NCBI GenBank assembly: GCA_938091485.1
Contig: CALKMV010000017.1
Span: forward strand, 1 to 54,787
Direction: 5' to 3'
Length of the DNA stretch: 54,787 nt
Source of the DNA: an uncultured Luminiphilus sp.
GTDB taxonomy: Bacteria; Pseudomonadota; Gammaproteobacteria; Pseudomonadales; Halieaceae
In this document: piece by piece, positions 26,034-44,896 of the stretch
Layout: every line of letters begins with the position of its first letter
Numbering within the stretch: position 1 is the first letter of the stretch
Notes under the pieces: generated by a model
Told to the model about the DNA's origin: nothing
What the model saw: the letters and a program-made list of their open reading frames with translations, nothing else
Databases searched by the model: none
Position numbers and translations under genes: made by a program

Positions 26034-26119
26034 GCGTTTTTACCTCAAGATCGCGCCGAGTGGCATGTCCTGCCATGTTTTTGTCATAATAGCCGGCTAT
26101 TTTGACGACGGACAGTAAA

Positions 26120-26191
26120 TCCCGCCCGGGAAATGAGGCTACGCACCCCGTAGCCGCCCGACAGAACAGCCTGCGCACGCAGGTGGCGGGG
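26120..26191 (+). promoter_or_regulatory. Candidate structured 5' leader (possible three-way junction) upstream of small ORF 26204
   Basis: P1 CCCGCC (26121-26126)/GGCGGG (26185-26190); P2 GGCTACG (26137-26143)/CGTAGCC (26149-26155); P3 CCTGC (26170-26174)/GCAGG (26179-26183); followed by GGAGG and ATG at 26204. Confidence 0.45.
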
Positions 26192-26203
26192 GAGGAAAAC
26201 ATC

Positions 26204-26413
26204 ATGACACAGACAAAACGCGAACCCTTTAATGCAGGCGACTTCTCAAGCCGCAAACTCATGGAGCTGGTCAGCGGCGACCGCGACAGCGACCGTCTGA
26301 CCCTCGACCAGGAGGCTCTCGATGCGGTGGTTTCTGAGCTGACGAGCCGGCGCCACTATCTTCGCGAGCTCCGTGATCGCGGATTGCTCGCGCCCCGCGC
26401 GCCCTCACCCTAG
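26204..26413 (+). CDS. Small conserved-looking hypothetical protein (69 aa)
   Basis: ATG preceded by GGAGGAAAACATC; MTQTKREPFNAGDFSSRKLMELVSGDRDSDRLTLDQEALDAVVSELTSRRHYLRELRDRGLLAPRAPSP; ends in TAG at 26411. Confidence 0.6.
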   Translation: MTQTKREPFNAGDFSSRKLMELVSGDRDSDRLTLDQEALDAVVSELTSRRHYLRELRDRGLLAPRAPSP

Positions 26414-26470
26414 GGCAGTCTCATCCCAAAAGATCTTGACCGCCCCCGCTCGGGCGATGTTGTCGCGTTT

Positions 26471-27115
26471 TTGCGGCAAACCAAGGCCATTCAGGCGGTG
26501 ACCCAGCGCCAGGCGCGCCTGGTCTTTGCACTCGATGCAACGGCGAGCCGCGAGCCGACTTGGCAGCAAGCTAGAAAACTGCACGGCGAGCTGTTCAGCG
26601 CCGCTTCAGAAACCACTTCTCTAGCGGTTCAGCTGTGCTACTACCGAGGCATGGCAGAATTTCACTCGAGCCACTGGCTCACTGAATCGGACGCGTTGCT
26701 CGACCAGATGAGTGGCGTCACCTGCGAGGCCGGCATCACACAGATCGGCAGAGTGCTTCATCATGCGCTGGATGCCGGCTCGGCGTCGCAGCCTATTCGG
26801 GCTCTCGTTTTTGTTGGTGATGCGTGCGAGGAATCACCGGAACCCCTGTTGTCGCTTGCCGGGCAGTGCGGCATCAAAAAGCTTCCGCTTTTCCTGTTTC
26901 AAGAAGGCAGGGACGCCACTACCCGCACTGTCTTCGATAGGATGGCAAAATTGAGTGGCGGCGCCGCGGTGCCATTTGATGCCAGCAGCGCCGAGCGCCT
27001 GAGACAACTGTTAGGTGCAGTGGCACGCTTTGCGCGTGGCGGACTGAAAGCGTTGCGGGACAGCGACGGTGCGGGCGATCGACTCCTTTTGGAGCAATTG
27101 GAAAAAGCGCCGTAG
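26471..27115 (+). CDS. VWA-domain protein; TTG is the first standard start in frame, but coding signal extends back to about 26414
   Basis: ARLVFALDATASREPTWQQARKLHGELF...VQLCYYRGMAEFHSSHW...GITQIGRVLHHAL; upstream in-frame GSLIPKDLDRPRSGDVVAFLRQTKAIQ follows the TAG directly. Confidence 0.8.
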   Translation: MRQTKAIQAVTQRQARLVFALDATASREPTWQQARKLHGELFSAASETTSLAVQLCYYRGMAEFHSSHWLTESDALLDQMSGVTCEAGITQIGRVLHHALDAGSASQPIRALVFVGDACEESPEPLLSLAGQCGIKKLPLFLFQEGRDATTRTVFDRMAKLSGGAAVPFDASSAERLRQLLGAVARFARGGLKALRDSDGAGDRLLLEQLEKAP

Positions 27116-27186: not shown

Positions 27187-27903
27187 GTGCCAAGAATGAT
27201 TCTGCTTATCGCCGTCGCACTGGCCCTGGTCATTTTGGTCCGACGCGCCCAAAGACAACCACCACACAAACGTCGCGCAGCCTATATGCAGATTATGCTT
27301 GGCGGCGCCGTCGTGGGCGTCGTTGTGCTGACATTGATGGGCAAGATGCATTGGATAGGTGCTGCATTGACCGGGGCACTGGTGATCGCTCGGCAAACGC
27401 TTCCCCTGCTGATTCGTCTCCTACCCATGCTGGGAAGTCTCCGGGGTCAGGGAGCCCAAGCGGCAGGCAAAAAATCTGAGGTGACATCGCGAATCTTGAA
27501 GATGACGCTGGACCATGACAGTGGCGATCTGAGTGGAGTGGTACTGGAGGGCGCCCACCAGGACTGGCTTCTGGACGAACTGGATCGCGAACAACTCGAT
27601 GACTTGATGGCATTCTGCCAAAGAGAAGATGCTGACTCGGCTCAACTGCTGGCCAGTTATCTCGAGCAGCGATTCCCTGAAGAGAGCGGAGCCGAAGAGC
27701 GCTCACAACATCAGGAAAGCGGTCAGAGTGCCGGCCTCATCCGTGCAGAAGCACTCGCAGTACTGGGTCTTTCGGATGATGCTGATCACGATGACATTGT
27801 GGCCGCGCACCGCACACTGATCCAAAAACTGCATCCAGACCGAGGTGGGAACGACTACCTCGCAGCGAAAATCAATGAAGCCAAGGATTTTTTACTCAGC
27901 TGA
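27187..27903 (+). CDS. Membrane-anchored J-domain (DnaJ-like) protein, GTG start
   Basis: N-terminal TM segments; C-terminal J domain AVLGLSDDADHDDIVAAHRTLIQKLHPDRGGNDYLAAKINEAKDFLL with HPD motif. Confidence 0.88.
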   Translation: MPRMILLIAVALALVILVRRAQRQPPHKRRAAYMQIMLGGAVVGVVVLTLMGKMHWIGAALTGALVIARQTLPLLIRLLPMLGSLRGQGAQAAGKKSEVTSRILKMTLDHDSGDLSGVVLEGAHQDWLLDELDREQLDDLMAFCQREDADSAQLLASYLEQRFPEESGAEERSQHQESGQSAGLIRAEALAVLGLSDDADHDDIVAAHRTLIQKLHPDRGGNDYLAAKINEAKDFLLS

Positions 27904-44744: not shown

Positions 44745-44746
44745 GA

Positions 44747-44832
44747 CAGGACCTGCGGGGTGGCTAACGCCTGAGATACCTTACCGGTAAACCCGTTGAA
44801 CCTGATCCGGATCATACCGGCGGAGGGACCGG
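44747..44832 (+). ncRNA. TPP riboswitch (THI element)
   Basis: GACAGGACCTGCGGGGTG...GCCTGAGATACC...ACCCGTTGAACCTGATCCGGATCATACCGGCGGAGGGACC: conserved CTGAGA and ACCTGATC...GGAGGGA boxes. Confidence 0.96.
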
Positions 44833-44896
44833 GTGTTTCGGAAGACTATCTTGCCAAACGCTGTGAGCCCCCGTAGACGACTGAGGAGCACAGCGC

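Follow-up and report, generated by a model that had tools for sequence, protein, structure and literature searches.

The ORF69 locus and its promoter

In the window, by which we mean the whole stretch of 54,787 nucleotides of Luminiphilus DNA that was analyzed, the small gene ORF69 is preceded by a predicted leader and a Pho-type promoter, and is followed by genes for a VWA-domain protein and a membrane protein with a J domain, the last of which probably belongs to the same operon. The features are as follows:

26070-26087, + strand: Pho box, two direct-repeat units CTGCCATGTTT TTGTCAT (found with a pstS-derived matrix; architecture common to most ORF69 orthologues)
26098-26103, + strand: -10 element TATTTT (spacing from the Pho box as in pstS promoters)
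26110-26203, + strand: predicted 5' untranslated leader (span from the putative start site to the ATG)
26204-26413, + strand: ORF69, a small protein of 69 amino acids (family conserved in Halieaceae, with orthologues in 88 of 140 genomes)
26423-27115, + strand: VWA-domain protein (read from the AUC at 26423; Pfam in relatives and predicted fold)
27187-27903, + strand: membrane protein with C-terminal J domain (Pfam DnaJ, E = 3.8e-6, just below the cut-off)

The named matches to ORF69 are from Luminiphilus and other Halieaceae, and the family shares the conserved motifs SRKL(W) and RRHYL.EL; searches of Pfam, NCBIfam and PDB with ORF69 returned no match. For the second gene, the Pfam VWA domain was identified in 8 of 19 relatives, and VWA folds were among the best structural matches to its predicted fold. 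Wherever the start of this gene was readable in loci bearing the three-way-junction leader described below (21 of 21), the codon was AUU or AUC, and it is homologous to the start in other Halieaceae genera, in which AUG, GUG or UUG is used. The AUC start was also found in several other loci when relatives L001-L028 and L030 were compared. Many junction-bearing loci have a stop a few codons upstream and no canonical start that would keep the conserved N-terminus of the VWA protein, and the window's gene likewise has no AUG, GUG or UUG compatible with it. There are rare known cases of conserved AUU starts, such as pcnB of E. coli and cvfC1 of S. aureus (PMC13009471), and the AUU/AUC start may put an additional brake on the second gene. 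Given that ORF69 stops about 10 nt before the VWA start codon, translation of the VWA gene is probably coupled to that of ORF69.

The promoter was scored with a matrix built only from the pstS promoters of sister genomes, and with this matrix 26070-26103 ranks first among about 110,000 window positions (22.7 bits, the next position having 9.7). Most members of the family have, ahead of ORF69, the pattern TCA(T/C)-N7-TGTCA(T/C), 10 nt, TAnnnT, the same architecture as in those pstS promoters. The window's Pho box fits the published definition (PMC4415409), its two 11-nt direct repeats occupying the activator position ahead of the -10 element, and tandem TGTCAT repeats also lie just upstream of phoB in the window's genome. 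Some junction-bearing relatives have lower scores (1.9 bits in L005 and -1.7 bits in L026), so that part of this clade has a weaker box. Across the Halieaceae, the ORF69-VWA-J-domain operon looks like a conserved member of the Pho regulon. The -10 element places the predicted transcription start near 26110, so that helix P1 of the leader would lie inside the transcript; an earlier note on this DNA, made from the sequence alone, had named a start downstream of 26190 as evidence against its proposed leader structure, and the predicted start is upstream of P1.

In the window's genome, the genes for PhoB and PhoR are neighbors on contig C10, each scoring above the cut-off, and nearly every genome of the genus has both proteins. 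None of the 22 junction-bearing genomes yielded a detectable PstS or PhoU, two proteins that were found in some other Luminiphilus. Many of these 22 genomes are incomplete, but it is unlikely that absence from all of them is an assembly effect. The junction-bearing Luminiphilus are of interest as a case of PhoB/PhoR persisting without detectable Pst-PhoU.

Structure and covariation of the leader

The elements of the leader fold, in 5' to 3' order, are these:

26120-26126, + strand: P1 5' strand UCCCGCC (folding, alignment and covariation)
26127-26130, + strand: P2a 5' strand CGGG (double changes in 3 of 4 P2a pairs)
26131-26136, + strand: P2 internal loop (UGA at 26134-26136 near-invariant, facing invariant G26156; alignment and changes per site)
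26137-26143, + strand: P2b 5' strand GGCUACG (double changes in 5 of 7 P2b pairs)
26149-26155, + strand: P2b 3' strand CGUAGCC (covariation)
26157-26160, + strand: P2a 3' strand CCCG (covariation)
26161-26168, + strand: junction strand J2/3 (final A, 26168, invariant; alignment and changes per site)
26169-26174, + strand: P3 5' strand GCCUGC (double changes in 3 of 6 P3 pairs)
26179-26184, + strand: P3 3' strand GCAGGU (directly adjoins P1; covariation)
26185-26191, + strand: P1 3' strand GGCGGGG (positions -19 to -13 relative to the ORF69 ATG)
26191-26195, + strand: Shine-Dalgarno GGAGG (first G common to P1)

The earlier note had proposed the helices P1 (CCCGCC at 26121-26126 with GGCGGG at 26185-26190), P2 (GGCTACG at 26137-26143 with CGTAGCC at 26149-26155) and P3 (CCTGC at 26170-26174 with GCAGG at 26179-26183), with P1 enclosing the other two in a three-way junction and its 3' strand adjoining the GGAGG (26191-26195) before the ATG at 26204. 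These coordinates are exact in the sequence, and the same junction was recovered both by covariation and in the minimum-energy fold of the leader, which adds a fourth helix absent from that note, P2a (26127-26130 with 26157-26160), and extends P1 by U26120-G26191 and P3 by G26169-U26184. P2a continues P1 without a gap and P3 adjoins P1 on the other side, leaving the 8 nt of J2/3 as the only unpaired nucleotides of the junction. The fold of this single sequence is weak evidence, the folding energies being those expected of GC-rich DNA (z = -2.0 for a chosen 88 nt and -0.13 for 143 nt).

The structure was compared across an alignment of 20 leaders, all from the window's genus. Unaided, RNAalifold recovered P1, P2a, P2b and P3, 9 of the 18 pairs showing compensatory changes, and in the full structure 13 of the 24 pairs had double (compensatory) changes, such as C-G to U-A in P1, C-G to G-C in P2a, CUAC/GUAG to UUGC/GCAA in P2b and U-A to C-G in P3. 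Paired cells made up 87.7% of the full structure versus 39-58% in slid controls, and none of 500 column shuffles reached the observed covariation values. Since shuffles ignore relatedness, a phylogenetic null was built in which each column was simulated independently along a tree derived from the adjoining coding DNA. The 13 double-change pairs in the model-fitted alignment compare with 4.3 +/- 1.5 under this null (maximum 9; none of 1000 simulations reached the observed number), and the 12 pairs in a MAFFT alignment made without fitting to the structure compare with 4.7 +/- 1.5 (maximum 9; none of 500 simulations). Because the double-change pairs exceed the null in both alignments, the comparative evidence shows that the RNA structure is real and is conserved by compensating mutations, which is the covariation of P1-P3 in orthologous leaders that the earlier note had proposed to look for. 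The idea that the helices are chance pairings in GC-rich DNA draws on the z-score of -0.13 over the longer stretch, but compensatory changes so far above the null in two alignments refute it, and we give it almost no credence.

In the alignment there are 41 G-U pairs versus 13 A-C mismatches, and it is therefore the plus strand that is the folded RNA; the same counts rule out a fold of the minus strand. Although the window has an open frame from 26102 onward, a coding explanation for the conservation is ruled out by loop indels of 1-2 nt together with an in-frame stop in L022. Unpaired sites that are near-invariant include the UGA/G of the P2 internal loop, the ACA preceding P1 and the final A of J2/3, whereas the loops of P2b and P3 vary freely, as judged by the alignment and by changes per site. 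Such conserved unpaired positions suggest specific recognition of the fold. Three group-B sequences (L007, L008 and L028) keep P1, with P2a weakened and P3 rearranged. A kink-turn in P2 was considered and rejected: this motif has tandem G-A/A-G pairs after a three-nucleotide bulge, and here one strand reads (A)AU-GA-GG while the other offers only a G followed by the invariant C.

The earlier note had also proposed an alternative pairing of 26154-26158 with 26185-26189 as the basis of a switch. Although the pairing exists in the window, the comparison gives it no support: compensatory changes are absent, the null is not exceeded, and 4 of the 20 sequences disrupt it at the very pair where P1 covaries from C-G to U-A. 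Lacking covariation and breaking exactly where P1 compensates, it was rejected as a general mechanism, and the switch proposed on its basis is not supported.

Distribution of the element

A covariance model of the element, which matches the window's leader at 26108-26194 with 96.7 bits, identified it in 22 of the 140 Halieaceae genomes, all of them Luminiphilus and each time immediately before ORF69. It is single-copy, save for one assembly whose second match, at the end of a contig, is taken as an assembly duplicate. Covariance searches of other Halieaceae genera and of the leaders of other ORF69 orthologues gave only noise and nothing convincing, and the ORF69 leaders of other genera contain unrelated hairpins. 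The operon is present in these genera without the element, which is therefore not essential to it. Other Luminiphilus (L011-L013, L015, L016, L103 and L107) have a shorter ORF69 leader with a possible single stem, UCGGYC/GRCCGA, that surrounds a conserved GAGACAGAUGG loop and adjoins the Shine-Dalgarno. An exact DNA pattern scan found only four close relatives, and no relatives were found in the viral contigs searched.

The earlier note recognized no riboswitch family in the leader and, in agreement, the Rfam scan of the leader gave no match above the gathering cut-off. The best sub-threshold scores were 15.6 bits against a cut-off of 49.5 bits, on the minus strand, and 13.9 against 70 bits; the former, a weak match to anti-hemB, was taken as chance. 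Elsewhere in the window Rfam identified an ordinary TPP riboswitch (44746-44846, + strand, 69.3 bits). A literature search found nothing on this leader element.

Probable control of translation and comparison with known systems

On balance, we consider it reasonably likely that the leader is a cis-acting element that controls a PhoB-activated operon at the level of translation, P1 lying tightly against the Shine-Dalgarno. Sequence comparison establishes the fold, the strand that folds, the constant placement of the element before ORF69 and the Pho-type promoter, and beyond these we infer binding by PhoB, the start site, a repressive sign and that the element regulates at all. PhoB on the Pho box at 26070-26087 would recruit RNA polymerase and transcription would proceed from near 26110, after which the first ~80 nt of the mRNA would fold as the three-way junction, closed by P1, with P3 stacked on P1 and P2 forming the arm that has the conserved internal loop. 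The 3' strand of P1 would run into the Shine-Dalgarno, within the usual 30S footprint, and P1 would thereby limit ribosome loading on ORF69. The output of the PhoB-driven message would then be set by whatever stabilizes or opens the junction, candidates being a protein (possibly a product of the operon), a small ligand or ion, or the ribosome itself.

Supporting a restraint of initiation by P1 was the finding that forbidding this helix largely exposes the Shine-Dalgarno in the calculation, its computed openness rising from 0.3-0.9 to 0.7-1.0. P1 covers the Shine-Dalgarno only partly, and the fold could be neutral or could even keep it open; in general terms, we favor the interpretation that it probably tunes the amount of protein by pressing on the ribosome-binding site. 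There is no terminator-like site on the plus strand between 26104 and 26203, such as a transcription attenuator would have, and for this reason control should be translational. Sequestration of the Shine-Dalgarno by codons 8-9 of ORF69 (CCCTTT) was also considered; this pairing is predicted in several sequences once 75 nt are added, but it is weak, follows conserved amino acids and is unproven.

What acts on the fold can be weighed from its distribution and its conserved positions. A three-way junction with near-invariant unpaired nucleotides and an adjacent ribosome-binding site would suit a new riboswitch for a small molecule or ion, in which the P2 internal loop and J2/3 form the ligand pocket and the ligand locks P1 against the Shine-Dalgarno. 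Known riboswitch classes, however, usually recur before several genes, whereas this element was found only before ORF69, in 22 genomes of one genus, rather than before different genes of one pathway, and neither a conserved alternative pairing nor two mutually exclusive conserved folds were found. The one-gene, one-genus distribution is mildly against a strict small-ligand riboswitch, which we think improbable, and points to a dedicated regulator more than to a metabolite riboswitch of wide occurrence. Strict linkage to one operon is typical of autoregulated operons, and ORF69 or another protein could bind the junction and repress its own operon; against this, the ORF69 family extends far beyond the genomes that carry the element and no known RNA-binding fold was matched by the ORF69 sequence, and we hold such binding to be a somewhat better prospect than the riboswitch, albeit still an unlikely one. 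Similarly doubtful is a role in stability only, in which the 5' structure carries no signal but shields the mRNA against decay or prevents misfolding of the GC-rich start region. The start of P1 ~10 nt from the predicted 5' end and the unrelated hairpins in the leaders of other genera are consistent with such a role, but the specific unpaired nucleotides are conserved beyond what a protective hairpin needs.

The significance of translation-level control by the leader depends on what it responds to: a hairpin that only tunes expression would be a modest addition, and one that senses something would be notable. A new class of sensing RNA, responsive to a ligand or a protein, on a PhoB promoter and in a lineage apparently without the Pst-PhoU sensor, is a speculative proposal to which we attach little weight. 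If it were correct, translational coupling and the non-AUG start would join it as several stacked post-transcriptional brakes on the operon. Independently of this, the covariation gives a firm RNA structure in abundant, little-studied ocean bacteria, the promoter tied to it would predict that the RNA is made at low phosphate, and an uncharacterized, widely conserved operon (small protein, VWA and membrane J-domain protein) appears to be linked to the phosphate response.

Among three-way-junction riboswitches, the TPP and purine riboswitches resemble the leader in that P1 closes two arms and conserved unpaired nucleotides lie inside. The leader differs from them in having no Rfam match, although the true TPP riboswitch of the window was detected, and in standing before one gene only, with no supported switch helix. 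Structured 5' leaders, for example ribosomal-protein leaders, control the translation of a single operon. The genes downstream here are not ribosomal, no regulator protein is known and there is no Rfam match, but the leader is like this type in having a conserved fold immediately ahead of the first gene's Shine-Dalgarno, in its strict tie to one operon and in control that is apparently translational. With respect to the Pho regulon, the promoter here drives the uncharacterized ORF69-VWA-J-domain operon, and the junction-bearing Luminiphilus have no detectable PstS/PhoU, with PhoB/PhoR mostly kept. In its design the promoter nevertheless agrees with known Pho promoters in the two 11-nt direct repeats with a CTGTCAT-like core (PMC4415409), and its -10 spacing is that of the pstS promoters of the sister genomes.
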